Source: a virus
Strand: one strand, 5' to 3'
Virus record (IMG/VR): IMGVR_UViG_3300023099_000118
Span: 1 to 38,705 of that record
DNA: 38,705 nt
Part shown: positions 15,318-28,562 of the stretch, piece by piece
Layout of the letters: each line of letters begins with the position of its first letter
Position numbering within the stretch: the stretch's first letter is position 1
Made by a program: the position numbers and the translations under genes
Notes under the pieces: generated by a model
What the model was told of the DNA's origin: nothing
The model's input: the letters and a program-made list of their open reading frames with translations, nothing else
Databases searched by the model: none

Positions 15318-15698
15318 ATGCAGGACGAAAAGAGTTGTTTACCGGAATGGTTTTCTCCGTTGCTTGAAGAGTGGGGCCGCGAATATGGTAAGGGTCGAGT
15401 CGTTGATTTGAGTGCGCGATCGGGAACGCAAATGATTTGGGGATCTGGTCATCGCGGTAAGGGTTTTTCATCTACTGAGGCTGAGCGCGCACTTGTAAAC
15501 AAGGCATTTTATGAGTTGCGGCAGGTGAGCGAATATGCGGCCGGTATGATCGAATTTGTCTATCTTGGTGGCCGTTGTAAATCAATGCGCGAGGTCGAGC
15601 ATGAATACGATTTGAGTAATCGTGCTGCGGGTGAGGAGGTTGGTGCTGCTGAGGCCTTGCTCTATTCCGAGTTCATTCGATTTAAACGTGCCGCATAA
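15318..15698 (+). CDS. Candidate late regulator (Q-like antiterminator)
   Basis: 126 residues from ATG 15318, chosen because GGGGG lies just upstream. The first part is MQDEKSCLPEWFSPLLEEWG, with a basic GHRGKG turn. Residues 70-120 (MIEFVYLGGRCKSMREVEHE, then YDLSNRAAGEEVGAAEALLY) follow the spacing of a sigma-70 region 4-like helix-turn-helix. It stands between replication and lysis genes and directly before a promoter facing strong terminators, the place of lambda-type Q. Role inferred from context and HTH. Confidence 0.55.
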   Translation: MQDEKSCLPEWFSPLLEEWGREYGKGRVVDLSARSGTQMIWGSGHRGKGFSSTEAERALVNKAFYELRQVSEYAAGMIEFVYLGGRCKSMREVEHEYDLSNRAAGEEVGAAEALLYSEFIRFKRAA

Positions 15699-15703
15699 AT
15701 AGT

Positions 15704-15732
15704 TTGCATTTTTGATCAAAGAGATTTATAAA
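15704..15732 (+). promoter_or_regulatory. Candidate late promoter (PR'-like)
   Basis: TTGCAT (15704-15709) and TATAAA (15727-15732) with a 17-base spacer. Transcription would start near 15740 and meet a strong terminator at once, the layout expected of a Q-dependent late promoter. Confidence 0.5.
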
Positions 15733-15761
15733 TTGCTTCACGCTTGGCAGAGCTACACGAT

Positions 15762-15796
15762 AAAGGCCGTTGGGGAAACCTAACGGCCTTTTTGTT
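15762..15796 (+). terminator. Strong rho-independent terminator
   Basis: AAAGGCCGTT pairs with AACGGCCTTT and the stem extends inward to 13 pairs closed by a GAAA tetraloop. A T-rich tail follows. It lies about 22 bases after the predicted start of the late transcript. Confidence 0.9.
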
Positions 15797-15841
15797 TGCG
15801 GCTCTGAAAGCGCTCTTGCTACAAGTCGATAGGTGCTTTAT

Positions 15842-15871
15842 GCCCGGTACGAAAGTGCCGGGCTTTTTTTT
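15842..15871 (+). terminator. Second rho-independent terminator
   Basis: GCCCGGTAC and GTGCCGGGC form a nine-base stem with a GAAA tetraloop followed by eight T. It ends 12 bases before the lysis gene, so late transcription must read through it. Confidence 0.9.
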
Positions 15872-15883
15872 GGAATTTATTTG

Positions 15884-16375
15884 ATGGCAAAAATAGTTTG
15901 CGGTTATGGGTTGGTTGGTCCCGCTCAGGTGAAGCAGTTCGCCCAAGCTGTCTGTGATGTGCTGGGTGCTGGTGAACAAAACTCTGCTGTGTATTTGTTG
16001 TGTGAAACGGCTGCCGCTGAAACTGGTTATGGAACTTATCGCGATTCAACGCCTGGTGGTGCTGGCCGTGGTTTGTACCAATGCGATGAAATTGCGTTTA
16101 AGGATGTGCAGCAGCGTACTCGCCAAGCTGACATCGATGCGCTGCAGGCGGCATTTGATTTCGATCTGCGTAAGGTTGAATGGGATGATTTGAATTTGTC
16201 CCCATTGCTTGCGACTGTGTTTGCTCGCTTGCACTACAAGTTAAAGCCCGAGGCCATCCCGCTAACGCTGCTTGGTCGCGCTGGCTATTGGAAAAAGTTT
16301 TACAACACATCGTCGGGCAAAGGCTCTGCCGATGAATACATCGCGAGAGTGAAGCCGTTTCAGGTCTATTTCTAA
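15884..16375 (+). CDS. Putative endolysin (muramidase or transglycosylase-like)
   Basis: 163 residues from ATG 15884; the longer frame begins inside a terminator. LLCETAAAETGYGTYRDSTP, then GGAGRGLYQCDE, resembles the glutamate-centred active site of lysozyme-like muramidases and transglycosylases, with E41 and E46 as candidates. LLGRAGYWKKFYNT and GKGSADEY are conserved in a phage family I know only from lysis or late regions. It should cut peptidoglycan. No signal peptide, so it needs the holin in the next gene. The exact bond cleaved is not clear. Confidence 0.6.
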   Translation: MAKIVCGYGLVGPAQVKQFAQAVCDVLGAGEQNSAVYLLCETAAAETGYGTYRDSTPGGAGRGLYQCDEIAFKDVQQRTRQADIDALQAAFDFDLRKVEWDDLNLSPLLATVFARLHYKLKPEAIPLTLLGRAGYWKKFYNTSSGKGSADEYIARVKPFQVYF

Positions 16376-16707
16376 TGTTTAGCAATTTTCCTCAAGGTGG
16401 TGGTGAGCCTGGCTGGTTTACGTTTTTGATTATTGTTGTGCTCGCGGTTTGGGGTGGATTAATCAACTACTTGAGCAGGGTTCGCAGCGCCATGAAGAAA
16501 TTTAATTGGGGTGAGTTGCTGTTGGAGATATCGATCAGTGCGTTTGCTGGTTTGTTGATTGGGCTGATGGCCTTCTCGTTTGATGTGAATACCTACATGT
16601 GCATGGCGTTGGCGGGAATATCTGGACACGCCGGTGGGCGCACTGTGTTCTTCCTGGATAAGTTCTGGGGCGAGCGGATTAAACAATTTCTTAAACTTAA
16701 GTCGTGA
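16375..16707 (+). CDS. Phage holin, LydA/holin superfamily III-like
   Basis: 110 residues with three hydrophobic segments (about 14-33, 48-68, 72-90) and a basic C-terminus. WGGLINYLSRVRSAMKKFNW, then LLLEISISAFAGLLIGLMAF, follow the pattern of the LydA-type holin family. It overlaps the endolysin stop as TAATG. It would form the membrane hole that lets the lysin out and times lysis. Confidence 0.75.
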   Translation: MFSNFPQGGGEPGWFTFLIIVVLAVWGGLINYLSRVRSAMKKFNWGELLLEISISAFAGLLIGLMAFSFDVNTYMCMALAGISGHAGGRTVFFLDKFWGERIKQFLKLKS

Positions 16708-16714
16708 GGTGTGT

Positions 16715-17098
16715 ATGCGTTTGTTAAAACTTATGGGTGGTTCGTTCGTAGCACTTTACCTTTCCTGTGCATTGCTGGCTGTGTACTCCATTGGCACTAG
16801 CGCTCCCGCTAAGGCGGTTGAATCGTCAGCTGCCGATCAATCAGTCAAGGTCTACGAGGTTAAGGCGCCTGCGATTGAGCAGGATGAGTCAGTCATCGCC
16901 GAGGCTGCGGATGCGGTACCTGATTGGATGGTGATACTCACATCCCTTATTTCGTTGGCTGGTGTGATCACGGCGATTACTCCAACGCCCAAAGATAATG
17001 CAGTGCTTGGTGTGGTGCGGAAGGTATTGGATATCGCCGCGTTTAATTTCGGTGGCGCAAAGAATGCGAGCGCGGATAAGTCAACGCGGCTTCGGTAG
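16715..17098 (+). CDS. Lysis-cassette membrane protein
   Basis: 127 residues from ATG 16715 (MRLLKLMGGSFVALYLSCAL), which follows GTGAGGTGTGT. An N-terminal helix (signal or anchor) is followed by an acidic periplasmic-type linker and a second hydrophobic segment (WMVILTSLISLAGVITAITP). TPTPKDNAVLG and the ending are like a recurrent 2-helix phage protein found with holins. It may be an accessory holin or antiholin. No spanin pair or lipobox is seen. Confidence 0.6.
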   Translation: MRLLKLMGGSFVALYLSCALLAVYSIGTSAPAKAVESSAADQSVKVYEVKAPAIEQDESVIAEAADAVPDWMVILTSLISLAGVITAITPTPKDNAVLGVVRKVLDIAAFNFGGAKNASADKSTRLR

Positions 17099-17433
17099 TG
17101 TCGCATTCATTCGGTTCTGCGCCGCGCTCTTCGCTTTATAACTACCAATGGCAGAAAGCGCGCGCTGAATTCCTTCGGTTAAATCCGTTCTGTATTGACT
17201 GTTCCAAGCGTGATTTGGTGATTAAAGCCACGATTGTTGATCACAAGATTGCACACAAAGAAAATCTTGAATTGTTTTGGGATCGCGACAATTGGCAACC
17301 ATTGTGCAAACCCTGCCATGACCGTCATAAGCAGCGCCTGGAGAAGTCTGGGCGCGTTGCGGGTTGTTCGGTCGATGGTGTACCGATTGACCCGAATCAT
17401 CACTGGGCGCGTGGATATGCTGAGAATGGGTAG
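17098..17433 (+). CDS. HNH endonuclease
   Basis: 111 residues with GTG start overlapping the previous stop (TAGTG). CIDC (near 32-35), DHKIAHKEN (the DH of the HNH core), and WQPLCKPCHDRHK give a four-cysteine zinc ribbon with the catalytic His pair. HNH proteins next to terminase occur in cos-type HK97-like phages and are needed for cutting at cos in some of them. Acting with terminase is therefore likely. Confidence 0.9.
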   Translation: MSHSFGSAPRSSLYNYQWQKARAEFLRLNPFCIDCSKRDLVIKATIVDHKIAHKENLELFWDRDNWQPLCKPCHDRHKQRLEKSGRVAGCSVDGVPIDPNHHWARGYAENG

Positions 17434-17571
17434 GGGGGTTAAAACCTAAAAACCTCTCGCGCTCTAGACCGATCCCCCCACTCGATGTTTATCAGCGGGA
17501 GTTTCGGAGGGGGGGGTACCCAAAAAGCAGGGGTATATTTTTTTTAGTTAATTTTTGAGTGGTATTTTTTT
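17434..17571 (+). other. Candidate cos region
   Basis: 138 bases without a gene, between HNH and terminase small subunit. It has a C6 run (17474-17479), a G8 run (17509-17516), a GC-rich stretch between them and then an AT-rich T-rich tail. This is where cos lies in HNH-bearing HK97-like phages. The cut position cannot be read from the sequence. Confidence 0.35.
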
Positions 17572-18093
17572 ATGGGTACTCGCGGGCCAAGACCTTTGCC
17601 GGATAACGTCCATTTACTGAATGGAAACCCGAGCAAAAAGAAATTGGCGGTACTGCATGACGGTTCGCGCATACCCGTTGAGATTCCTGATTGTCCGACA
17701 CACCTAAGTCCGTCTGCAAAAAAAGAATGGAAGCGAATTTCCGTTGAGTTGGAGCGCCTCGGCCTGATCGCGAAGATAGATCGTGCAGCTCTGGGTGTTT
17801 ATTGCCAAGCGTATGCGCGTTGGGAAACCGCTGAAAAGAAAATGCGCAAGGATGGTGACGATGCATTGGTATACAAAATGCCCTCTGGCTATGAGCAAAC
17901 CAGTGCGTGGCTACAGATCAGCAACCGCTCAGTAGAAATAATGCATAAATTCCTTGCTGAATTCGGCATGAGCCCATCTGCGCGTTCACGTGTGTCAGTG
18001 ACAGTGCAACAAGATTTATTTAATGAGCCAAGCAGCACAACAACACAACAGCCCGCCACCAAGCCCGCCGATAAGTTTTTTAGACCTCGATGA
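17572..18093 (+). CDS. Terminase small subunit, P27 family
   Basis: 173 residues. The N-terminus GTRGPRPLPDNVHLLNGNPS and the CPTHLSPSAKKEWKR segment, then a helical core (IDRAALGVYCQAYARWETAE), are typical of P27-type small terminases. It recognises the packaging site and recruits the large subunit. The end is low complexity (SSTTTQQPATK) because it overlaps the start of the large-subunit gene by 71 bases in another frame. Confidence 0.93.
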   Translation: MGTRGPRPLPDNVHLLNGNPSKKKLAVLHDGSRIPVEIPDCPTHLSPSAKKEWKRISVELERLGLIAKIDRAALGVYCQAYARWETAEKKMRKDGDDALVYKMPSGYEQTSAWLQISNRSVEIMHKFLAEFGMSPSARSRVSVTVQQDLFNEPSSTTTQQPATKPADKFFRPR

Positions 18094-19780
18094 TCCGGTC
18101 ACTCACTACGCGCAATGCGTAGTGAGCGGTGAAATTGTTGCTGGCCCGCATGTGCGTGATGCCTGTGCGCGTCATTTGCGTGATCTGGAGAACGGCCACG
18201 AGCGCGGGCTAGTGTGGGATCTGGAAAAGTCGCGTTTTGCGTTGGAGTTTTTCCCGGCTGTACTTTGTTTGAATGGTGGCCGGTTTGAAGGCAAGCCATT
18301 TGAACTCGAATTGTGGCAAGCATTTATCGTTGGCAGCTTGTTTGGCTGGTGCTGGATAGCAACAGAGTGTAGGCGTTTTCAAATCGCCTATATCGAAACG
18401 GGAAAGGGTTCGGGTAAATCACCACTTGCCGCAGGAATAGGTCTGTTTGGCTTGGTTGCTGATGGCGAAAACCGTGCGGAAATTTACGCGGCCGCCACAT
18501 CAAAAGATCAGGCGGCAATTTTATTTCGCGATGCTGTGGCGATGGTTGATCAATCGCCGGAATTGGATTGGCGCATCGTGCGCAGTGGCAGCAAGGGTAA
18601 AGAAAACAACCTGGCGTATCACGATACCAGCAGTTTCTTCCGTCCGATCGCAGCAGGCGAGGGGCAAAGTGGGCCGCGTCCGCATATTGTTTTGCTGGAT
18701 GAGATTCACGAACACAAAGATGGCACCGTTGTTGAAATGCTTCGCGCCGGTTTTAAATTCCGGACGCAGCCTTTGCAAGTGATGATCACTAACAGCGGCT
18801 CAAACCGAAAGTCAGTTTGCTGGGAATACCACCAATTCGGTACTGAGGTCTGCGGTGGTGTAAGAGAGGACGATACCTTTTTTGCGTACATCTGCGCGCT
18901 CGATAAAAAGGACGATCCGTTTGAGGATGAGAGTTGCTGGCCGAAAGCAAATCCCTCGCTGGGTGTGACGATTCAGCATAAATATTTGCGCGATCAAGTT
19001 ACGCAGGCGAAGGGTATGCCTGCGAAAGAGAGCTTGGTGAAGCGCGTTAACTTTTGCATGTGGGTGGAATCAGTGGCGCCCTGGATCAGCTATCACGTTT
19101 GGCAAGATGCTAAGCAGCATTACGATCGCGATTTATTGCTCGGGCGTAAGTGTTACGGCGGATTGGATTTATCGTCTACCACTGACCTTACTGCTTTCGT
19201 GCTCGCGTTTGAGCCAACACAAGACGATCCCTATTGGCGATTAGTTCCGTTTTTCTGGCTCCCAGAAGTGGGGCTTTCGGAAAAAGAAAAAACCGATCGC
19301 GTGGAATACACGGTTTGGAAAGAGCGGGGATATCTTGAGACAACCCCGGGCAAAGCGATCAGTAAATTGCACGTGCTTTTGCGGATTGTTTCCATCATTG
19401 AATATTTCGATTTGCAAAGCATCGCTTACGACCGCTGGCGGATTGAGGATTTGTTGGCGCTAGCAAATGACAACGGTGTTTCATTGCCGGAAATTATTCC
19501 GTTTGGCCAAGGCTTCAAAGATATGGGGCCAGCGGTGGACACGTTTGAAACGCTACTAGTTAACAACCAGCTTAAACACGATGGCAACCCGGTTATGACC
19601 TGGTGCGCTGCCAATGCCGTTGTGGTGAGTGATCCAGCAGAAAACCGAAAGGTCGCAAAAGACAAAGCGCTCGGCCGCGTTGACGGAATCGTCGCCGGCT
19701 GCATGGCGCTTGGCAAAGCAAATGTCGTTACCGAAAAAGGTGATGAAGACGGTTTCTATCGGAGTCCAATAATCGCATGA
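18023..19780 (+). CDS. Terminase large subunit
   Basis: 585-residue ATP-driven packaging motor and nuclease of the HK97-type Terminase_1 family. Walker A is TGKGSGKS (126-133), Walker B is IVLLDE (222-227), with the coupling motif near 256 (TNSGS). The nuclease domain starts GGLDLSSTTDLTAF with D382 as a metal ligand. It feeds DNA through the portal coded next. It begins inside the small-subunit gene and ends in ATGA overlap with portal. Confidence 0.97.
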   Translation: MSQAAQQHNSPPPSPPISFLDLDDPVTHYAQCVVSGEIVAGPHVRDACARHLRDLENGHERGLVWDLEKSRFALEFFPAVLCLNGGRFEGKPFELELWQAFIVGSLFGWCWIATECRRFQIAYIETGKGSGKSPLAAGIGLFGLVADGENRAEIYAAATSKDQAAILFRDAVAMVDQSPELDWRIVRSGSKGKENNLAYHDTSSFFRPIAAGEGQSGPRPHIVLLDEIHEHKDGTVVEMLRAGFKFRTQPLQVMITNSGSNRKSVCWEYHQFGTEVCGGVREDDTFFAYICALDKKDDPFEDESCWPKANPSLGVTIQHKYLRDQVTQAKGMPAKESLVKRVNFCMWVESVAPWISYHVWQDAKQHYDRDLLLGRKCYGGLDLSSTTDLTAFVLAFEPTQDDPYWRLVPFFWLPEVGLSEKEKTDRVEYTVWKERGYLETTPGKAISKLHVLLRIVSIIEYFDLQSIAYDRWRIEDLLALANDNGVSLPEIIPFGQGFKDMGPAVDTFETLLVNNQLKHDGNPVMTWCAANAVVVSDPAENRKVAKDKALGRVDGIVAGCMALGKANVVTEKGDEDGFYRSPIIA

Positions 19781-21051
19781 AATTTTACTCACCGTTAACC
19801 AGTTGGTTAGGCGGCATCTGGACTGCTGTGCTTGGCGGATCGTCGCAGGTTGCCCAGACGCGCAACCACTCCGAGTCTGATGCGGGCGAGTGCGTAAGTG
19901 CCGATAAAATTTTGCAGCTCACCACGGCGTGGCGTTGCTGCCAAATTATTTCGCAAACAACTTCCATGCTGCCAAGAAAGTTGTATCAAAAAGGGAGTGA
20001 TGATAGCCGCATCGAAATCAAAGATGACTTGAATACGGTGCTGTGTGTGCGGCCAAATTCAATGATGAGCGCATTGAAATACTGGGAAATGCAAGAGATG
20101 TGCGTTTGTCTCTGGGGTAACGCTTACTCAAAAATACTTCGCATTGGTGATCGCGTTGTAGGCCTTGAGCCTTTATTGCCTTCATGCATGACTGTTGTGA
20201 TTGACGGTAAAGATTTGAAGTTTGTTTATACCGACAAAGGTAAGCAAACCACCTATTTGCAGCATGAGATATTTCATATTAAGGGGCTTACCCTGGATGG
20301 AATTATCGGTCTTTCTCCAATTTCTTACGCCAACCAGTTAATGGGGCTTTCGATTGCTGCTGATAAAGCGGCATCGAGTTCGTTTAAAAATGGTATGCGT
20401 CCTGCGGGCGCATTGAGACTTAGCAATTTCCTCAACAAAGAACAGCGCGCTGATGTTAAAGAAAACATCGTGGCTCCGTTTGCTGGCGCGATGGGTGCCG
20501 GCAAAACTTTGGTGCTTGAGGGTGGTATGGAATGGCAGCAAGTCAGCTTCAATCCGATTGATGCTGAGCTGCTCGGCACCCGCAAGTTTCAGCAAGAGAC
20601 TATCGCCGGTTGGTACGGAGTTCCTGCGTGGCTCGCTGGGATCAGTAATAGCGGTACATCAAATTTCGGCACCGGACTTGAGCAGCAAAACCTTGGCTTC
20701 CTGACTTATACCTTGAGCAGTTATATATCTGAAATCGAAAGCGCGGTTAACACCCAGCTGCTTACACCTGCGCAGCGCGCCAAAGGAATTTATCTTGAGC
20801 ATAGCTTGGAAGGTTTGCTTCGTGCGGACAGTGCAGGGCGGGCTTCTTATTACTCGACCATGACCCAAAACGGAATCATGAAGAGAAACGAGGCGCGGAA
20901 AAAAGAAAATCTTCCTCCTGCGGATGGCGGTGATGTGCTGACTGTTCAATCTAATTTAATTCCGCTGGATATGCTGGGAAAAACAAACACACCAACGCAA
21001 TCACTGAAAGACGCGTTGCGCGCAATTATGCAAGAGGATGAAGCAGCATGA
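19777..21051 (+). CDS. Portal protein, HK97 family
   Basis: 424 residues of the HK97-type portal, forming the twelve-subunit ring through which DNA passes. The core starts TTAWRCCQIISQTTSMLPRK, then YWEMQEMCVCLWGNAYSKI, LSPISYANQLMGLSIAADKA, and YGVPAWLAGISNSGTSNFG. These are the standard landmarks. It overlaps both neighbours as ATGA, consistent with coupled translation. Length is in the usual range. Confidence 0.95.
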   Translation: MKFYSPLTSWLGGIWTAVLGGSSQVAQTRNHSESDAGECVSADKILQLTTAWRCCQIISQTTSMLPRKLYQKGSDDSRIEIKDDLNTVLCVRPNSMMSALKYWEMQEMCVCLWGNAYSKILRIGDRVVGLEPLLPSCMTVVIDGKDLKFVYTDKGKQTTYLQHEIFHIKGLTLDGIIGLSPISYANQLMGLSIAADKAASSSFKNGMRPAGALRLSNFLNKEQRADVKENIVAPFAGAMGAGKTLVLEGGMEWQQVSFNPIDAELLGTRKFQQETIAGWYGVPAWLAGISNSGTSNFGTGLEQQNLGFLTYTLSSYISEIESAVNTQLLTPAQRAKGIYLEHSLEGLLRADSAGRASYYSTMTQNGIMKRNEARKKENLPPADGGDVLTVQSNLIPLDMLGKTNTPTQSLKDALRAIMQEDEAA

Positions 21052-21722
21052 TCAAGCAAAAAACATTTCCGTTTGAAGTTAAATCGGTCGATGAAACCAG
21101 CGGTGCCTTCACCGGTTATTTGAGTGTGTTCGGTAATAAAGATTCCTACGGTGATGTGGTAATGCCTGGCGCATTTGCCAAGTCACTTGCTGAGTGGAAC
21201 ACAAAGGGGCGCCTTCCTCCGGTGTTATGGCAGCACCGCAGCGGCGAACCCATCGGGCCATTCACCAAAATGTCTGAGGATGGTGCCGGTTTGTGGGTGG
21301 AGGGCCAGCTGCTCGTTGACGATATCGCCCGTGCACGTGAAGCCCGAGCATTACTCAAAGCAAAAGCGATCGGCGGCATGTCGATTGGTTATGAGGTCGC
21401 GCCAGGTGGTGAAGATTTCGATGCGAAAAACGGTACCAATTATTTAAAAGAATTAGTGTTGTGGGAGGGTTCGATTGTGACCTTTCCCGCGAACGATTTG
21501 GCGGGCGTTACTGATGTTAAATCCATGTTGCTTAAAAATGGATTGCCCAGCCTGAAAGACTTTGAAGGTTTCCTGCGCGAGGCAGGGTTTTCAAAAACTC
21601 AATCCACCGCGATTGCCAATCACGGGTTGAGTTATTTGCTTCGGAGTGAGTCCGGCGCATCGGCAAAACAAGAACTGGATTCAATCCTCGATTTAATCAA
21701 ATCTAGCCCGCGTGTCGGGTAG
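21048..21722 (+). CDS. Prohead protease, HK97 family
   Basis: 224 residues. GYLSVFGNKDSYGDVVMPGA, WQHRSGEPIG (catalytic H63) and IGGMSIGYEV (catalytic S112) are the family signatures. It cleaves the scaffold domain from the capsid protein during prohead maturation. The C-terminal third (about 155-224) is variable and probably guides it into the prohead. It overlaps the portal gene by four bases and ends nine bases before the capsid gene. Confidence 0.95.
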   Translation: MIKQKTFPFEVKSVDETSGAFTGYLSVFGNKDSYGDVVMPGAFAKSLAEWNTKGRLPPVLWQHRSGEPIGPFTKMSEDGAGLWVEGQLLVDDIARAREARALLKAKAIGGMSIGYEVAPGGEDFDAKNGTNYLKELVLWEGSIVTFPANDLAGVTDVKSMLLKNGLPSLKDFEGFLREAGFSKTQSTAIANHGLSYLLRSESGASAKQELDSILDLIKSSPRVG

Positions 21723-21730
21723 GAGCCTTT

Positions 21731-23089
21731 ATGAAAAAGTTTCATTTGTCGGCAGTATTTATGCTTGCCGTTATTTTCCTTGTTGCATTAATGCCAGTGG
21801 TAATTGGCTTTAATGTTCTCGGCGTTGGTGCCTCTGTCGCTGTGCTGGTTATCGCTGGTTTGATTGCTGAGCCTGCACCCAATGGTTATGTGTCGCCCCG
21901 TATGTCGCCAATGCGAGGTGAGGCGGGTGCGCCGGAAATTAAAGAAGTGGTGCTTGCTGCGCTAAAAGAGCGGGATACTGAATTAAATAAATTCATCGCC
22001 AAATCTGATCAAGATATTAAGGATCACGGCAAGGTGCTTGATGACACTAAGCAAGCTATTCAGGAATTAACTGAAAAAGGCATTGAGCTTACTGAGCGCC
22101 TGTTGGCTGCTGAGCAAAAAAGTGCGGAAACGGAAAAGAATCGCGGGCAAAAAGAATTATCACCGGGTGAGCTGTTTGCGAAGTCTGACGCATTAAAAGA
22201 TTTCGCAAGTCGCGGCGGTAAAGGTGCCTCGCAAACGTTGGAATTGAAAGCAATTACATCTGGCGCTTTGTCGGGTGGTGCCGGTATTTGGTCTGATCGT
22301 CTTGCTGGTGTAGTTGAAGATCCGCTGCGTCCGCTTACCGTTCGTGACTTGTTGGATCAGGGCACTACCGATTCGAATTTGATTGAGTGGGTTCGCGAGA
22401 ATGTATTCACTAACAATGCGCGGCCAGTTACAGAAGGTGCCAGTAAGCCTGAATCAAATATCACTTACGAGCGCATTGATGTACCTGTGCGCACGATTGC
22501 CCATTGGATACCTGCAACAAAGCAGGTCCTTGCCGACTTTCCTCAATTGCAAACGTTGATCAACGGCCGCCTGACGTACGGCCTGAAAATCAAAGAAGAG
22601 GATCAGATTTTATTGGGTGATGGTACTGGTGAAAATATTCACGGCCTTGTGCCGCAGGCGACCGCCTATGATGTTGCAAGAAACAAATCAGGCGACACCA
22701 AAATCGATCAAATTCGCCATGCGGTCTTGCAGGTACGTCAGGCTTTTTACCCTGCAACCGGCATCGTGATGAATCCTGCTGACTGGGAGGCAATTGAGCT
22801 GCAAAAAGATGGTGAAGACCGCTACCTTTTTGCAAATCCCAACACGCTGAATGTGCGCACCTTGTGGGGCTTGCCTGTTGTGGAGTCTGATGCGATGCCG
22901 TCCGGTGAATTCCTGGTTGGCTCCTTCCGTATGGCGGCCACTTTGTTTGACCGGATGTTGGCAAGTATCGCTATGGCTGATCAGCACGCCGATTTCTTCA
23001 TCAAGAACATGATTGCCATTCTTGCTGAAGAGCGCCTTGCCCTTGCGGTATCGCGTCCAAAAGCGTTTGTGCACGGCGATTTCATTTAA
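21731..23089 (+). CDS. Major capsid protein, HK97 family
   Basis: 452 residues. About 66-138 is a coiled-coil scaffold (delta) domain, about 165-180 is the likely protease cleavage zone, and 180-452 is the HK97 fold (GGAGIWSDRLAGVV, AHWIPATKQVLADFPQL, EEDQILLGDGTGENIHGLV, TLWGLPVVESDAMP). Unusually, residues 5-46 are two strongly hydrophobic segments before the scaffold. The ATG has the best ribosome site (GTAGGAGCCTTT), so I keep that start. No other ATG with a ribosome site lies between the hydrophobic part and the scaffold. Confidence 0.93.
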   Translation: MKKFHLSAVFMLAVIFLVALMPVVIGFNVLGVGASVAVLVIAGLIAEPAPNGYVSPRMSPMRGEAGAPEIKEVVLAALKERDTELNKFIAKSDQDIKDHGKVLDDTKQAIQELTEKGIELTERLLAAEQKSAETEKNRGQKELSPGELFAKSDALKDFASRGGKGASQTLELKAITSGALSGGAGIWSDRLAGVVEDPLRPLTVRDLLDQGTTDSNLIEWVRENVFTNNARPVTEGASKPESNITYERIDVPVRTIAHWIPATKQVLADFPQLQTLINGRLTYGLKIKEEDQILLGDGTGENIHGLVPQATAYDVARNKSGDTKIDQIRHAVLQVRQAFYPATGIVMNPADWEAIELQKDGEDRYLFANPNTLNVRTLWGLPVVESDAMPSGEFLVGSFRMAATLFDRMLASIAMADQHADFFIKNMIAILAEERLALAVSRPKAFVHGDFI

Positions 23090-23117
23090 TCGCTTGGGAT
23101 CGTAATCAATAGTCAGG

Positions 23118-23144
23118 AAAGGCTGGGGAAACCCGGCCTTTTTC
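23118..23144 (+). terminator. Terminator after capsid gene
   Basis: AAAGGCTGGG and CCCGGCCTTT form a ten-base stem closed by GAAA, followed by T residues. It probably gives more capsid mRNA than downstream mRNA. The next gene starts five bases later and lacks a ribosome site. Confidence 0.85.
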
Positions 23145-23148
23145 ATTT

Positions 23149-23385
23149 ATGAATTTGATATCGCTAACCAGTTTTAACGGCCGCCTTGGCCACATTAAAC
23201 GCGATCAGCCATTCAGTTGTGATGAAGGCTATGGCAAAGAATTGATTGGAAAAAAAATGGCGATCGAAGCACCAAAAAATAAAGCGAAAACCGACCCAAA
23301 AAACAAAAGCGCTGGCGCCAGTGCGTCATCCTCGCCAGCGGCCCGAGCCTCAACAGGAAAGACGCAGAACAAGCAAAGCAATTAG
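23149..23385 (+). CDS. Small post-capsid protein, zero-frame product
   Basis: 78 residues, MNLISLTSFNGRLGHIKRDQ at the start then a lysine-rich tail. Small proteins opening MxLI-LTSF often follow capsid genes in such phages, with unknown role. After codon 52 the frame overlaps the DUF115-like protein and turns low complexity (SAGASASSSPAARAS), as expected of an out-of-frame shadow. A slippery A-AAA-AAC at 23298 would let part of the ribosomes shift into the other protein. No ribosome site precedes the ATG. Confidence 0.6.
   Translation: MNLISLTSFNGRLGHIKRDQPFSCDEGYGKELIGKKMAIEAPKNKAKTDPKNKSAGASASSSPAARASTGKTQNKQSN
23298..23340 (+). promoter_or_regulatory. Predicted -1 frameshift signal in post-capsid gene
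   Basis: The heptamer A-AAA-AAC (23298-23304) lies in frame with the 23149 gene. After a 5-base spacer, CGCTGGCG (23310-23317) pairs with CGCCAGCG (23333-23340) to make an eight-base, GC-rich stem with a 15-base loop. A -1 shift leads into the DUF115-like frame. Confidence 0.65.
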
Positions 23386-23933
23386 GGCCAGTCATTGCGA
23401 TCAATAGCACTTGGCAAATGGCGCCCTGGGCTGATGTGGTTTATGCATGTGATTGGCAGTGGTGGAATTGTTACCACGTAGCAACGGCAACTTTTCGTGG
23501 TGAGCGCTGGACCTGCAATGACCGCGCTGCTGAAGAGTTCGGCTTGTCACATGTGGAGCCCATTCATGGCGGTGATTTTAAATATCGCGATGGCGCAATT
23601 CACGCAGGCAATAACAGCGGTTACCAGGCAATTCAATTGGCGCACATGTTTGGCGCAACACGAATTATTTTATTGGGTTTTGATTTTCAGCGCACCGGTG
23701 GGCAAACCCACTGGCACGGTGACCACCCTGCAGGATTTGCCAACGGCGGCAATTACAAAGAATGGGGTAGGCAGATGGCAATTTTAAATGCGCATTTGCA
23801 GTCGGTCGGTGTGGAGGTGATTAACTGCACACGTGAAACCGCGCTGGAATGTTTTAAAAAAGCATCGCTTGAAAATATTGTGGAGCAATTCAATGCAACA
23901 AATGGCCGGAATGAAAAAGCCATCGTGGCGTGA
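23304..23933 (+). CDS. DUF115-like protein, expressed by -1 frameshift
   Basis: The 209 codons after the shift read QKRWRQCVILASGPSLNRKD, then VIAINSTWQMAPWADVVYAC. ILASGPSL is the nucleotide-sugar-type loop of DUF115/Maf-like proteins, and GYQAIQLAHMFGATRIILLG matches their second Rossmann half. There is no ATG, GTG or TTG between the stop at 23280 and ATG 23418, which lies past the motif and has no ribosome site. With the upstream 52 codons the product is 261 residues. It may act on sugars; DUF115-related enzymes resemble sialyltransferases. A single-base indel is the rival explanation. Confidence 0.65.
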   Translation, partial: QKRWRQCVILASGPSLNRKDAEQAKQLGPVIAINSTWQMAPWADVVYACDWQWWNCYHVATATFRGERWTCNDRAAEEFGLSHVEPIHGGDFKYRDGAIHAGNNSGYQAIQLAHMFGATRIILLGFDFQRTGGQTHWHGDHPAGFANGGNYKEWGRQMAILNAHLQSVGVEVINCTRETALECFKKASLENIVEQFNATNGRNEKAIVA

Positions 23934-24051
23934 TGCCCCTGAATGGGCAATTGCGCTTAACCAAAGTGAGGCAGGCGAGTGGTTTTGGTCGAGCCTGATT
24001 GATGTTTCGAGTTACATAGAGTCCCGCCCAGGTCTGGCAACTGCATGTTGA
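23893..24051 (+). CDS. Small conserved phage protein
   Basis: 52 residues, MQQMAGMKKPSWRDAPEWAI, with GEWFWSSLIDV later. It starts within the end of the DUF115-like gene with a GTGGAGCAATTC ribosome site and overlaps the GT9-like start by seven bases. The W-R-D-A-P-E-W-A opening recurs in small phage proteins; its role is unknown. The double overlap makes it part of the cassette. Confidence 0.55.
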   Translation: MQQMAGMKKPSWRDAPEWAIALNQSEAGEWFWSSLIDVSSYIESRPGLATAC

Positions 24052-24878
24052 TATATGGCATGCAAGGGCTGGGAGACAATATTTACCAGCGCGCTTTTAT
24101 TAAGCAATTACCGCAACCGATTTATTTGCAAACGCCGTGGCCAGAGTTGTACCGCGATATGCGCGTGCGATTTATTAAGCCCGACACAAAATTACGCACA
24201 CAGCTAAAAAACGTTGAGCGCAACACCCGTTGGGCAGCGCCTTCTTTTTCTCAGCAGGCTAGGCGGGTTTCTTACGGGAACGAGGGGATATACACCGGCA
24301 TGCGGCGCGGTTTTGGTGTTGAGCCTGGCTCGTTGGATTTGCCTGATTTTGGTAGATCGCCGGTAGATGGAAAATATGCAGTTATCCGCCCGGTAACTAT
24401 TCGTTCTGAGTGGCGAGCGGATGCGCGAAACCCGCTGCCGGAGTATGTAAGTGGCGCGGCAAAAATTTTGCGATCGCAAGGTTATACGGTGGTGTCGGTT
24501 GCCGACCTGGAGCCAGAGAAGGAGTGGCTGGTGGGTGAAGTGCCGGATGCGGATATTCGGTTTCACGCCGGTGAATTATCTGTCGATCGATTACTGGCAT
24601 TAATAAATTCTGCCGCGGTTGTCGTTGGCGGCATTGGTTGGATTGTTCCTGCCTGCATCGCTGCAAAGGTGCCGACGTGGATCGTGTGTGGCGGGCAGGG
24701 TGGATTTAATCACCCGAGTTTAATCACCGATTGCACGATGGATTTATCAAAAATTGAATTTGCGTTACCGGAAAATTACTGCCGCTGCACGCGGCGCGAA
24801 CACGAATGCGATAAGCGGATAATTGATCATGACAAACGCTTTGCCGAATGGCTTGACCGACTGCCTGCTCTGGTCTGA
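24045..24878 (+). CDS. GT9/heptosyltransferase-like glycosyltransferase
   Basis: 277 residues. GMQGLGDNIYQRAFIKQLPQ resembles the GxGD opening of GT9 enzymes. LLALINSAAVVVGGIGWIVP and KVPTWIVCGGQGGFNHP match the donor-binding half (usually SNDSG-hA-x-G-P). Asp and Ser expected in that loop are changed to VGGIGW, so activity or substrate may differ. The C-terminus CRCTRREHEC is Cys-rich. It probably sits in one transcript with the DUF115-like and methyltransferase genes. GT9 identity is moderate. Confidence 0.65.
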   Translation: MLIYGMQGLGDNIYQRAFIKQLPQPIYLQTPWPELYRDMRVRFIKPDTKLRTQLKNVERNTRWAAPSFSQQARRVSYGNEGIYTGMRRGFGVEPGSLDLPDFGRSPVDGKYAVIRPVTIRSEWRADARNPLPEYVSGAAKILRSQGYTVVSVADLEPEKEWLVGEVPDADIRFHAGELSVDRLLALINSAAVVVGGIGWIVPACIAAKVPTWIVCGGQGGFNHPSLITDCTMDLSKIEFALPENYCRCTRREHECDKRIIDHDKRFAEWLDRLPALV

Positions 24879-25443
24879 AGAGTTGGGTATGGGCTTTCAC
24901 CCACGCGCGCCAATGAGCTATGAAGGTGATTATTGGCAGCACTACCGCGAGATGGATGCAACCGATATGGGTGCTGCATTAACGCAGGCACGCGTCGAGT
25001 TGGTTCGCCGTCATTTCGGTGGTGTTGTTGTGGATGTGGGTATCGGTGGTGGCCGCTTTGTTGCTGAGGCGGATGCGTATGGTTTTGATGTGAGTGCGAG
25101 TGCCATTGCATGGCTTAAATGCAGTGGCCGCTATCATGACCCCTACGAAATTAGCGTCGCGGCCGTGTGTTGCTGGGACAGTTTAGAACACGTGCCAGAC
25201 CCAAAAGCATTGGTTGCCTGCGCAGTGCAATGGTTGTTTGTATCCATGCCGATTTATAACGATGTGCAGCACTGCCTCGCCTCCAAACATTACAAGCCCG
25301 GTGAACACTTGTGGTACTGGACTGAAAAAGGCTTTATCGACTGGTGCGCGCGTGAAGGCTTTGAGCTTGTGGAAAAAAACCACATCGAAACCACAATAGG
25401 GCGCGAGGGAATAACATCGTTTGCGTTCCGGAGAGTGCAATGA
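24829..25443 (+). CDS. Class I SAM-dependent methyltransferase
   Basis: 204 residues from ATG 24829 (a TTG at 24823 is less likely). VVVDVGIGGGRFVAEADAYG is motif I and AVCCWDSLEHVPDP is the motif with the acidic and W-D-S-LEH pattern of Methyltransf_11/23 proteins. LYWTEKGFIDWC-type ending (HLWYWTEKGFIDWCAREGFE) is common in sugar or lipid methylases. It overlaps the GT9-like gene by 50 bases. The target may be a glycan or a virion protein. Confidence 0.8.
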   Translation: MTNALPNGLTDCLLWSEELGMGFHPRAPMSYEGDYWQHYREMDATDMGAALTQARVELVRRHFGGVVVDVGIGGGRFVAEADAYGFDVSASAIAWLKCSGRYHDPYEISVAAVCCWDSLEHVPDPKALVACAVQWLFVSMPIYNDVQHCLASKHYKPGEHLWYWTEKGFIDWCAREGFELVEKNHIETTIGREGITSFAFRRVQ

Positions 25444-25760
25444 GTTTTATCACCATCGAGCAGGCTAAGCGCCAAATGCAGATTGATGATGACCTGGAAG
25501 ATGATGAGACGATTCAGGAATGCATTGATGACGCGATTCAGGTTGCTGCCGATTTTCTGAATCGGCCAATTCCCTGGGAATTTAATAATGAAAACTCGCC
25601 GCCATCACCAAAAGTGCCCGGTAGTGTGCGTCGCGGAATACTCTATTTGATGACTGAGTTTTATCAGGTGAGAAAGGCGGGGAATGTTGCGGCTGTCATT
25701 ACTCCGGATGCGGCGGTAACAGCCATGCTCTTCCCTTATCGTATTGGGATGGGTGCGTAA
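25440..25760 (+). CDS. Head-tail connector (gp6-like)
   Basis: 106 residues. MSFITIEQAKRQMQIDDDLE, then DETIQECIDDAIQVAADFLN and VRRGILYLMTEFYQVRKAG, match HK97 gp6-type connectors, helical proteins that form a ring under the portal. It overlaps the methyltransferase as ATGA and the next gene as TAATG. The family is confident. Confidence 0.88.
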   Translation: MSFITIEQAKRQMQIDDDLEDDETIQECIDDAIQVAADFLNRPIPWEFNNENSPPSPKVPGSVRRGILYLMTEFYQVRKAGNVAAVITPDAAVTAMLFPYRIGMGA

Positions 25761-26113
25761 TGGCTGAGGACATTAATGAAATTGACCCTGGGCGCATGAA
25801 TAAAAAAGGCATGTTCCAGCGGCGTGTTGAGACGCGTGATGATTTTGGGCAAAAGTCTTTTGGTTGGGTGGATATTTTCCCAAAGAAAGTATGGGTTGAA
25901 TTAATACCAATTTCGGGGCGCGAGCTGCTCTCGGCGCAACAAGTTCGCGGTGAAGTCACGCACCGGATCCGCTGCCGGTACCGCCAAGGGCTGGATGCGG
26001 CTATGCGCTTTGTTTATCGCTCGCGCGTTTACGATTTGCAGGCCGTTATTAATCCGCGTGAAGTCGGCGTGATGCTGGAAATTATGTCGAAAGAGGGGCT
26101 AAGTGATGGCTGA
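25760..26113 (+). CDS. Head-tail adaptor/joining protein
   Basis: 117 residues of the phage head-tail joining family (SPP1 gp16-like). MFQRRVETRDDFGQKSFGWV, then VWVELIPISGRELLSAQQV, and THRIRCRYRQGLDAAMRFVY are the landmarks. The protein closes the portal exit after packaging. It sits in the usual place between connector and tail completion genes. Confidence 0.9.
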   Translation: MAEDINEIDPGRMNKKGMFQRRVETRDDFGQKSFGWVDIFPKKVWVELIPISGRELLSAQQVRGEVTHRIRCRYRQGLDAAMRFVYRSRVYDLQAVINPREVGVMLEIMSKEGLSDG

Positions 26114-26342
26114 TATGCCGGGCAGTGAAGTTAAAAATGTTCCACATCGCCAGCTCATGTTGCGGCGCGATCCGCTGGGCCACTTTTGTTTGCATGATGT
26201 GCTCACGGGTATGCCGCTTGCTGGGCAGGTTGCGGTCAATGTTGAGCAAATTCCATTCGATGTAACCACGGTCACCGTAAAGTTTTCGTGTGATCCACGC
26301 TGCGATGGGCATGTCATTATCGTGGGTGATGATCGTGGCTGA
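26106..26342 (+). CDS. Hypothetical head-tail region protein
   Basis: 78 residues from ATG 26106 (MADMPGSEVKNVPHRQLMLR), beta-rich, with no named family. AGAGGGG lies just upstream. It overlaps the adaptor gene by eight bases and the next by several more. The place would suit a minor connector component, but I see no proof. Confidence 0.5.
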   Translation: MADMPGSEVKNVPHRQLMLRRDPLGHFCLHDVLTGMPLAGQVAVNVEQIPFDVTTVTVKFSCDPRCDGHVIIVGDDRG

Positions 26343-26844
26343 GAATATTCAGCTGCATGGACTGGACGCGCTTAAAAATACACTCAAGGATTTGCCTGCT
26401 GTCATCGGAGAAAAGGTGCTACGGGCTGCTTTGCGTGCTGCCGCCAAACCAATCAGTAATGAAGCGAAAGCCCGTGCGCCGGTACTTAAAGAGCCGGATT
26501 CTCGCCGCAAGCCAGGCACCGTGCAAAAAAATATTATTACCCGGCAATCAAAACAAGAAAAATACGGCGTTTACGTTGGAGTAAAGGCGCTTAAAAAAAA
26601 GCAAATTCTGGCTTTCCGTAAAGCGAATGGCATAAAAAAGGGAAAGGGCGCGAACAATCCTGACGACCCTTATTATTGGATTTTCAATGAATTCGGCACA
26701 TCTAAAATGCCAGCAGCTCCTTTTTTGCGGCCAGCATTTGAAAGTAGAAAATATGAATCACTCAAAAAATTTGAGGATTTATGCAAGCGTAGAGTCGTCA
26801 AAGAGGCTGAAAAACTGGCCAAGCAAAAAGGCATGCCGCAATGA
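26329..26844 (+). CDS. HK97 gp10-like tail completion protein
   Basis: 171 residues from ATG 26329; GTG 26335 after GGGTGAT is equally plausible. IQLHGLDALKNTLKDLPAVI, then AAKPISNEAKARAPV and YWIFNEFGTSKMPAAPFLRP, are the gp10 landmarks. It is a tail-end or stopper protein that joins the tail to the head. Basic and lysine-rich in the middle. It overlaps its neighbours. Confidence 0.88.
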   Translation: MIVAENIQLHGLDALKNTLKDLPAVIGEKVLRAALRAAAKPISNEAKARAPVLKEPDSRRKPGTVQKNIITRQSKQEKYGVYVGVKALKKKQILAFRKANGIKKGKGANNPDDPYYWIFNEFGTSKMPAAPFLRPAFESRKYESLKKFEDLCKRRVVKEAEKLAKQKGMPQ

Positions 26845-27209
26845 TTGAAGCTGAATTGATTAGCGTGCTTAAAAATGATTTGGCGGTTAGCGGCTTGGTG
26901 GCAGACCGGGTGGCGCTAACAGGTCTGCCTGAGGGCGACACGTCACCGTACATTGTTTGCCAATTAATTTATGGATCCCGATCTGGTTCGTTGAGCTCAA
27001 CTGGTCGGTCCCCGAAAAAAAGAATGCAGGTGAGTTGCTATGCGACCACAGGCAAAGGGGCAAAGGATGTTGCTGCTGCTGCGGAATCGGCTATTGAAAA
27101 CTATGATGAATTCGCTGTGGTGTTTTTGGGTGATCAGGATTTGTATGACCCGATAACAAAACTGTTTTACACCGTGCTGGACTATTCCATAACCCAGCAC
27201 ATCAACTAA
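26841..27209 (+). CDS. DUF3168 tail completion protein
   Basis: 122 residues. MIEAELISVLKNDLAVSGLV, then RVALTGLPEGDTSPYIVCQL, GRSPKKRMQVSCYATTG and the final TVLDYSITQH match DUF3168. The family forms the tail terminator ring in lambda-like tails. ATGA overlap with the gp10-like gene. A terminator-like hairpin follows before the tail tube gene. Confidence 0.88.
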   Translation: MIEAELISVLKNDLAVSGLVADRVALTGLPEGDTSPYIVCQLIYGSRSGSLSSTGRSPKKRMQVSCYATTGKGAKDVAAAAESAIENYDEFAVVFLGDQDLYDPITKLFYTVLDYSITQHIN

Positions 27210-27942: not shown

Positions 27943-28356
27943 ATGTTACGTAAATTACTGCTATGGCTTTTGGCGTTCATTGGTGGGCGCTCTCAGGTTG
28001 CCACGCGCGATTCGATCCTTAGTGCTTCTGATCGCATTGCGGGGCACCTGGATATTCCTGAATGGGGTGGCCGCGTTCACGTTGCTACGCTCACGGTATC
28101 GCAGCGGGCGAAGTTTCTGGAGGCGCTGGGTAAGGTCGGCGGGGATGGGGTAGAGCGGGCGTTGAAATATTACGATACGCAAATATCGCTGATCGCTAGC
28201 GGTGTTGTTGGGGCGGATAGTGTGCCGCTGTTTACGGATGCAGATGTGGCGCAGCTTGCGAATAAATCCCCGGCGATAGTTGGTCGGGTGTATGACGAAA
28301 TCATTCGCCTCAACGGATTCTCGCTGGTGGCGACTGAGGATCAAGCAAAAAACTAA
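27943..28356 (+). CDS. Tail assembly chaperone (gpG-like)
   Basis: 137 residues. RDSILSASDRIAGHLDIPEW, then RVHVATLTVSQRAKFLEALG, is the tail chaperone pattern, and it stands between the tail tube and tape measure. Its first 15 residues (MLRKLLLWLLAFIGG) are hydrophobic, which is unusual. The last codons, GCA AAA AAC TAA, hold the slippery heptamer. It would bind the tape measure during tail assembly. Confidence 0.85.
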   Translation: MLRKLLLWLLAFIGGRSQVATRDSILSASDRIAGHLDIPEWGGRVHVATLTVSQRAKFLEALGKVGGDGVERALKYYDTQISLIASGVVGADSVPLFTDADVAQLANKSPAIVGRVYDEIIRLNGFSLVATEDQAKN

Positions 28357-28392
28357 GGCGCCAATCGGAACGGTTTTTTAAGTTCCGGTTGG
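28347..28392 (+). promoter_or_regulatory. -1 frameshift signal for G/GT
   Basis: A-AAA-AAC at 28347-28353 ends just before the gpG stop. After seven bases, CCAATCGGAAC (28361-28371) pairs with GTTCCGGTTGG (28382-28392), an 11-base stem with one G-U pair and a ten-base loop. Confidence 0.9.
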
Positions 28393-28562
28393 CAAGAGAC
28401 CTTGGCAAAACAATCGCGGAAATAAACCTAATGCCGTCCTCTGAATTTGTTCAGTGGATGGCATTTTATTTAGTGGAATACGAAATTAATTCCGACACAT
28501 CGCCGCCGCTGGAATATGACGATCCAGAGGAGCATGCGAAGGCAATTGATCGGCTCTTTTAA
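28353..28562 (+). CDS. Tail chaperone T extension (gpGT), frameshifted
   Basis: After the -1 shift, reading continues for 69 codons: LRRQSERFFKFRLARDLGKT, then IAEINLMPSSEFVQWMAFYL. LGKT-AE and E[FL]xxWxAFY are features of the T part of siphophage tail chaperones. The full gpGT is 206 residues. Small amounts bind the tape measure while gpG is in excess. The segment has no good own start, which supports shift-dependent synthesis. Confidence 0.88.
   Translation, partial: LRRQSERFFKFRLARDLGKTIAEINLMPSSEFVQWMAFYLVEYEINSDTSPPLEYDDPEEHAKAIDRLF

Follow-up and report, generated by a model that had tools for sequence, protein, structure and literature searches.

A conserved candidate −1 frameshift site behind the phage capsid gene, predicted to join a small protein to a glycosyltransferase-like domain

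As judged from sequence, a small gene directly 3′ of an HK97-type capsid gene very probably contains a conserved programmed −1 ribosomal frameshift site. The window analysed here is the whole 38,705-nucleotide stretch of virus record IMGVR_UViG_3300023099_000118 (IMG/VR), and all features described below lie on its plus strand. The major capsid protein, of the HK97 fold family, is encoded at 21731-23089 (PF05065 Phage_capsid, E = 2.2e-58). The next gene, at 23149-23385, encodes 78 amino acids in what we call the zero frame and matches phrog_2616 (E = 5.5e-9). Overlapping its 3′ part, a −1 frame is open at 23283-23933 and encodes a putative glycosyltransferase domain of the GT42/Maf/MptE-like (DUF115) kind that lacks a start codon of its own. 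The slip site falls within the phrog_2616 gene 3′ of the capsid gene rather than within the PF05065 gene, and it is placed between the capsid and head-tail adaptor genes, not just 5′ of the tape measure gene. A search of the genome against itself found one copy only of this arrangement. The capsid family lay directly 5′ of the small open reading frame (ORF) in 10 of 10 relatives tested.

Between the capsid stop codon and the small ORF lies a terminator-like hairpin (23121-23143; GGCTGGG/CCCGGCC with a GAAA loop, plus T5), which, from its sequence, may attenuate transcription 3′ of the capsid gene. A rho-independent terminator is annotated at the equivalent place in phage PMG1, and a similar hairpin is visible in D3 and Psp6.

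Overlapping frames and slippery site in the window

The two overlapping ORFs were reported in an initial annotation of this DNA, and both are present in the sequence. Its statement that no start codon precedes the ILASGPSL motif (23328-23351) was verified as well: the −1 frame contains no ATG, GTG or TTG before the motif, and its first ATG, at 23418, lies beyond it, so that a start there would delete the first strand and the ASGPSL loop of the enzyme domain. The ASGPS glycine-rich loop within this motif (23334-23348) is invariant among family members, and the zero-frame stop codon (23383-23385) lies 3′ of it. Translation across a −1 shift agrees with the 261-residue fusion protein that had been predicted.

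Toward its 3′ end, the small ORF has the codons GAC CCA AAA AAC AAA AGC GCT GGC, which hold a tandem slippery site (23295-23304). Its two overlapping heptamers, C_CCA_AAA (23295-23301) and A_AAA_AAC (23298-23304), are each in phase with the zero frame. The initial annotation was correct that A_AAA_AAC stands in the zero frame, but in naming it as the slip site it overlooked the overlapping C_CCA_AAA. C_CCA_AAA is also the type that D3-like relatives retain, as C_CCA_AAG. In E. coli assays, C_CCA_AAA is a member of the efficient V_VV.A_AA.R class, A_AAA_AAC has a low shift efficiency, C_CCA_AAG ranks with the most efficient heptamers (54% in combination with a strong pseudoknot), and C_CCU and C_CCC are shift-prone tetramers that require a strong stimulator (PMC4066793). 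Because C_CCA_AAA belongs to the more efficient class in E. coli, we consider it more likely than A_AAA_AAC to be the main slip site of the window. By itself, AAAAAAC occurs near its chance frequency in the window (19 matches versus 15.8 ± 3.8 expected), and no Shine-Dalgarno-like stimulator was evident by eye upstream of the site.

Downstream, after a spacer of 5 nt, two arms (23310-23317 and 23333-23340) form a perfect 8-bp GC stem, as had been described. This stem-loop (23310-23340) starts 5-8 nt after the slippery site, and its 3′ arm encodes the ASG motif. The stem of the window is weak when taken alone (folding z of −1.3 to −1.7 in 41-45 nt windows), and in a 76 nt window a different fold is preferred over it (z = −0.56). 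No feature of the window is significant alone; the case for the stem and the slippery site rests on comparison.

The genome has a second −1 site, at 28347-28562, where the G/GT tail-chaperone genes carry GCA AAA AAC TAA and an inverted repeat around TTTTTT; the same A_AAA_AAC heptamer had been noted there, and we found it at 28347 with a stem behind it. A tail-chaperone identity for the site behind the capsid gene was rejected, as it lies in head genes and the real G/GT site of the genome is the one at 28347.

Conservation among relatives

A first scan of viral contigs with the single protein found one distant relative, and profile scans were needed for the rest. Profile scans of IMG/VR and GTDB contigs identified 314 loci with the motif, of which 158 remained after an 85% identity cut. 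The −1 overlap was found in 111 of the 158 non-redundant loci, and the split between the two frames in 254 of the 314 loci overall. The scan of genome contigs yielded six loci, of which L318-L321 (Steroidobacteraceae, Burkholderiaceae, Achromobacter and Bordetella) show the arrangement and L322 and L323 lack it in this form. Before the motif, 91 of the 111 loci with the −1 overlap have no ATG, GTG or TTG (82% versus 24% expected for random codons), and the other 20 have at least one candidate start.

Slippery motifs are concentrated in a single phase. Counting X_XXY_YYZ heptamers from the nearest upstream stop codon to the motif, over at most 150 nt, we found 68 in the zero-frame phase versus 15 and 13 in the other two phases among the start-less loci, and 20 versus 3 and 1 among the remaining loci. 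The totals, 88 versus 18 and 14, give a binomial p of 4e-19 against equal phases with kinship ignored, relatedness partly remaining among loci at the 85% identity cut. The heptamers lie mostly 32-56 nt before the motif, and C_CCT_TTG, G_GGA_AAA, A_AAA_AAN, C_CCA_AAR and A_AAC_CCT are common. In the loci that have no heptamer, an in-frame C_CC at −29 to −50 was present in 28 of 37, versus 13 and 8 in the other phases; most of these tetramers are C_CCT or C_CCC, placed upstream of the motif by exactly 35 or 41 nt. Across the 111 loci, tetramers in other phases are fairly frequent (24-26 loci). No known in-frame shift-prone motif was found within 60 nt of the motif in 18 of the 111 loci, several of which have heptamers farther upstream. 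In L012, L014, L017, L022, L024 and L027, an in-frame heptamer lies 92-134 nt before the motif rather than about 40 nt, with GC-rich sequence between. The initial annotation had proposed comparing homologous loci for retention of A-AAA-AAC and the stem while the two frames stay separate. The −1 overlap is kept in the 111 loci, most of them with an in-frame motif and a GC stem, but the exact heptamer is not the conserved item, as C_CCA_AAR, C_CCT_TTN, G_GGA_AAR, A_AAA_AAN, T_TTT_TTG or C_CCY is used in its place.

The frame relation between the two domains is nearly constant. With a small-domain profile derived from 25 members, we obtained a match 5′ of the enzyme domain in 100 non-redundant loci, and in 99 of these the small domain is in the frame that requires a −1 shift. 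The single exception, L218:1821-2561, is the only relative found with the small and enzyme domains in one uninterrupted ORF. A fused relative had been named beforehand as grounds for abandoning the frameshift; with one such locus found and the other 99 of 100 requiring −1, we keep the frameshift reading. L218 reads better as a lineage with a natural, permanent fusion, an error in the contig being possible, and if so it supports the fusion product as the functional form.

In many loci, base pairs form between a left arm GGCCGCTGGC, encoding GRW in the −1 frame, and GCCAGCGGCC, encoding ASGP; the window has this type of stem too, with a shorter loop. Over the 111 loci, again at the 85% identity cut with some relatedness remaining, each locus pairs better with its own arms (−17.86 kcal/mol) than with arms swapped among loci (−16.69 ± 0.24 kcal/mol), and none of 2,000 swaps was as good. 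Local folding is stronger at the site (−18.4 kcal/mol) than in seven offset windows (−9.4 to −12.3 kcal/mol), the GC content at the site being 65% versus 56-60%. In a subset of 59 loci, picked by eye for fixed spacing, 85.8% of cells pair, versus at most 56% when the arms are slid, and two-sided compensatory changes are few (8 cells, in 3 pairs, versus 2.2 cells in shuffles). On these alignments, the downstream GC stem is conserved across relatives, with modest covariation.

The arrangement is also present in named phages. A tblastn search of phage records gave 74 matches, the best of which are Pseudomonas phages at 42% identity. In D3, homology reaches well beyond the annotated orf7 start on its 5′ side, into orf6.5, and the same is true of D14C, phPA-G, U7, phi1 and Psp6. 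A −1 overlap with C_CCA_AAG is found in D3, phPA-G, U7, phi1 and D14C, and one with T_TTT_TTG in Psp6, where the final −1-frame stop precedes the heptamer by three codons. In the D3-like phages, orf6.5 occupies the zero frame and the enzyme domain the −1 frame, with C_CCA_AAG 36 nt before the motif. Public annotations start the domain after the G-rich loop or, in phi1, leave it out, and a joined gene is marked in none of the nine frameshift-type records examined.

No close kin of the window itself were found, and our test of which frame is under selection covers the D3-like group. In 35 distinct D3-like sequences, the variability upstream of the heptamer is 7.03 at zero-frame wobble positions versus 1.80 and 0.97 at the other positions; downstream, it is 2.60 at wobble positions of the DUF115 frame versus 1.31 and 0.26. 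The C_CCA_AAG heptamer is invariant in the same 35 sequences, and the 24 nt that lead from it to the stem are nearly so. Read through these substitution patterns, the comparison directly demonstrates a switch of coding frame at the slippery site in the D3-like group.

Alternative explanations for the split

It could be that the two frames are separate genes and that the glycosyltransferase domain begins at its own weak or non-standard start upstream of the motif. In the D3-like phages, the DUF115 frame contains a GTG or TTG 60 nt upstream of the motif, the PMG1 annotation uses an in-frame start upstream of the motif, and true stand-alone versions with their own ATG exist in phages P1 (pmgO) and PAJU2 (ORF010). 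The 20 of 111 loci with a candidate start would also fit this explanation, but the start-less majority of 91, which includes the window, would not, and a near-cognate start with a Shine-Dalgarno core is present in only 10 of the 111. A free start would also leave unexplained why the slippery motifs occupy one phase and why the frame relation holds in 99 of 100 loci, and we regard it as very unlikely. Reinitiation after the zero-frame stop was rejected: the stop lies a median of 79 nt downstream of the motif in the 111 loci and, because it is downstream of the ASGPS motif, reinitiation there cannot yield the enzyme domain. Shifting to the +1 frame was also rejected; the criterion also yielded a +1 ORF in 15 start-less loci, yet all of them had a −1 ORF too.

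The initial annotation had raised a plain indel in the A6 run as the rival: a single gene could have been split there by an error in the sequencing or by a true insertion or deletion, which would make the arrangement an artefact or a pseudogene. Indels do tend to arise at runs such as CCCAAAAAAC, and L218 has both parts in one frame. Most loci, however, lack a long homopolymer at the site, and the same split is seen in the 111 non-redundant loci (254 of 314 overall), including the isolate genomes of D3, PMG1, phi1 and Psp6. In the D3-like group, codon periodicity indicates that both frames are under selection with the switch at the site. As isolate genomes and divergent metagenomic phages alike show the split, a plain indel is, on the sequences compared, not tenable for the family as a whole, and we consider this explanation extremely improbable. 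A run of A residues might instead cause the RNA polymerase to slip, so that the fusion is made by transcriptional rather than ribosomal slippage. A-rich runs are present at the site in the window and in a few relatives (L013, L043, L052 and L086), but most relatives have C_CCT_TTG, G_GGA_AAA, C_CCA_AAG or C_CCY and no long homopolymer, and these motifs are not expected to make RNA polymerase slip. A stem 5-9 nt downstream suits a ribosomal site, and the chance that transcriptional slippage makes the fusion appears slight in the extreme. Programmed −1 ribosomal frameshifting is the reading that we carry forward.

Predicted products and possible role

The structural model of the small protein predicts a beta-alpha domain for residues 1-40 (pLDDT 93-95) followed by a disordered tail. 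In relatives, the zero-frame tail is basic, with a mean net charge of +4.6 over the last 20 residues. Residues 1-41 of the model can be superposed on the gpFI C-terminal domain of phage lambda (2lsm) with an rmsd of 0.8 over 41 residues and a Z score of 4.3, a score that many unrelated small domains tie; the fold also matches ribosomal L9 N-domains and GINS. No sequence match between the small protein and gpFI was found, and NCBIfam gave no match for either the small protein or the enzyme domain. Lambda FI lies just behind the capsid gene E, and we know of no frameshift in it. The small protein and gpFI are both small head-region proteins encoded 3′ of the capsid gene, but homology is unsupported by sequence and the fold is small and matched elsewhere. 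It is gene position and fold class that suggest an FI-like role for the small protein, gpFI being a chaperone for DNA packaging that binds the gpE lattice of the prohead (PMC4856287). The ATG at 23149 has no Shine-Dalgarno core, and an in-frame internal ATG at 23257 is preceded by GGA and an A run. From this sequence context, a start at 23257 is possible and would yield a shorter pair of products.

For the −1 frame, domain residues 17-202 match positions 1-175 of 178 of phrog_4603, annotated as 'alpha-2,3-sialyltransferase' (E = 3.6e-52). The Pfam MptE-like/DUF115 family (PF01973) is hit under its gathering cut-off (26.3 versus 34.6 bits, E = 7e-6) over 33 residues only, and a sequence search of the PDB with the enzyme domain gave only marginal matches, to CstII (E about 0.9). 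The model of the domain (pLDDT 92) matches the fold of the Maf flagellin glycosyltransferase (5mu5; Z = 15.0), CstII/CstI (Z = 12.3) and MptE-like HPPK (8sd5; 10.6). The Maf and CstI/CstII matches span 178-181 residues, at a sequence identity of 11-16% to the GT42/Maf/MptE-like structures, and unrelated matches have Z scores under 6. The ASGPSL loop aligns with AGNGPSL of CstII. With Campylobacter GT42 CstI/CstII, Maf and MptE-like HPPK, the domain shares the fold and the G-rich loop (A-SGPSL versus AGNGPSL); unlike those proteins, it is predicted to be made by frameshifting as the C-terminal part of a protein from the phage head region. P1 PmgO and PAJU2 ORF010 belong to the same glycosyltransferase-like family, but have their own start codon and no frameshift joining them to a small upstream protein.

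The next gene (24045-24878) encodes a GT9-like putative glycosyltransferase identified by profile match (phrog_6804; named GT9 in D14O), and the third gene of the apparent cassette (24829-25443) encodes a methyltransferase, also by profile match (phrog_6564). In some relatives (L062 and L034), the enzyme domain runs in frame into a GT9-like protein that is the counterpart of 24045-24878, and such fusions, seen in several relatives, tie the apparent cassette together. One ORF extends 466-625 amino acids from the motif in L062, L034, L042, L162, L171, L187, L265, L274, L306 and L316, and a frameshift in these relatives is predicted to yield a product with two glycosyltransferase-like domains. 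Where the end of the GT9-like gene (24878) overlaps the start of the methyltransferase gene (24829), the DNA at 24801-24922 is 82-87% identical to that of D3-like phages; elsewhere within 15500-27000 there is almost no DNA-level alignment to them. At 24801-24922, two reading frames seem to be constrained simultaneously.

We propose that most ribosomes would stay in the zero frame and stop at 23385, releasing the 78-residue small protein with its disordered tail. A minority, stalled by the stem-loop at 23310-23340, would slip −1 on CCCAAAAAAC, most probably on C_CCA_AAA, and produce the 261-residue fusion of the same small domain with the putative glycosyltransferase domain. The small domain may bind the prohead or head, in which case the slippery site would set the ratio of the two products and place the enzyme on a small share of the head-associated copies. 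The tethered enzyme might then, with the GT9-like protein and the methyltransferase, modify a head protein or another late-infection acceptor. A role of the frameshift product in head glycosylation is a serious possibility, though one that falls short of being probable.

The initial annotation regarded a frameshift near a capsid gene as new, which does not hold: programmed frameshifts are known in the coat proteins of T7 and T3 (gene 10A/10B), Lactobacillus phage A2 (a −1 Ig-like extension) and Listeria phages PSA, A118 and A500 (PMC5009743). These cases share with the present one the recoding of a head gene, whereby a minor form of an abundant protein gains a C-terminal extension. Their base is the major capsid protein and their extension is Ig-like or short, whereas here a small post-capsid protein would be extended by a glycosyltransferase-like fold. 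Lambda G/GT shares the −1 shift, a slippery heptamer, two overlapping ORFs and conservation over very divergent phages, but G/GT is a tail chaperone, whereas the present site involves head genes, other protein families and a C-terminal part with an enzyme fold. A search of open-access papers turned up no account of frameshifting for these two genes. What is new is the gene pair and the enzyme-like extension; frameshifting in or beside capsid genes was already known.

Together, these data describe a recurrent predicted frameshift module that is present in no fewer than 111 non-redundant phage loci, the long-known phage D3 included, and that the public annotations examined have missed. Because annotators mostly start the enzyme after the nucleotide-binding loop or omit it, databases hold truncated proteins. 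Among the relatives, slippery sites range naturally from strong heptamers to a proline tetramer that stands alone before a strong stem, and this series is useful for working out the rules of frameshifting. An enzyme-like domain would join the things that phages attach to head-region proteins by recoding. More tentatively still, we suggest a widespread family of tailed phages in which a −1 shift, at a heptamer or C_CCY followed by a stem, may tether a GT42/Maf-like glycosyltransferase, sometimes fused to GT9, to a capsid-bound packaging-type protein, so that the enzyme might glycosylate the virion or travel with it. This is a specific claim about virion modification that is testable by mass spectrometry.
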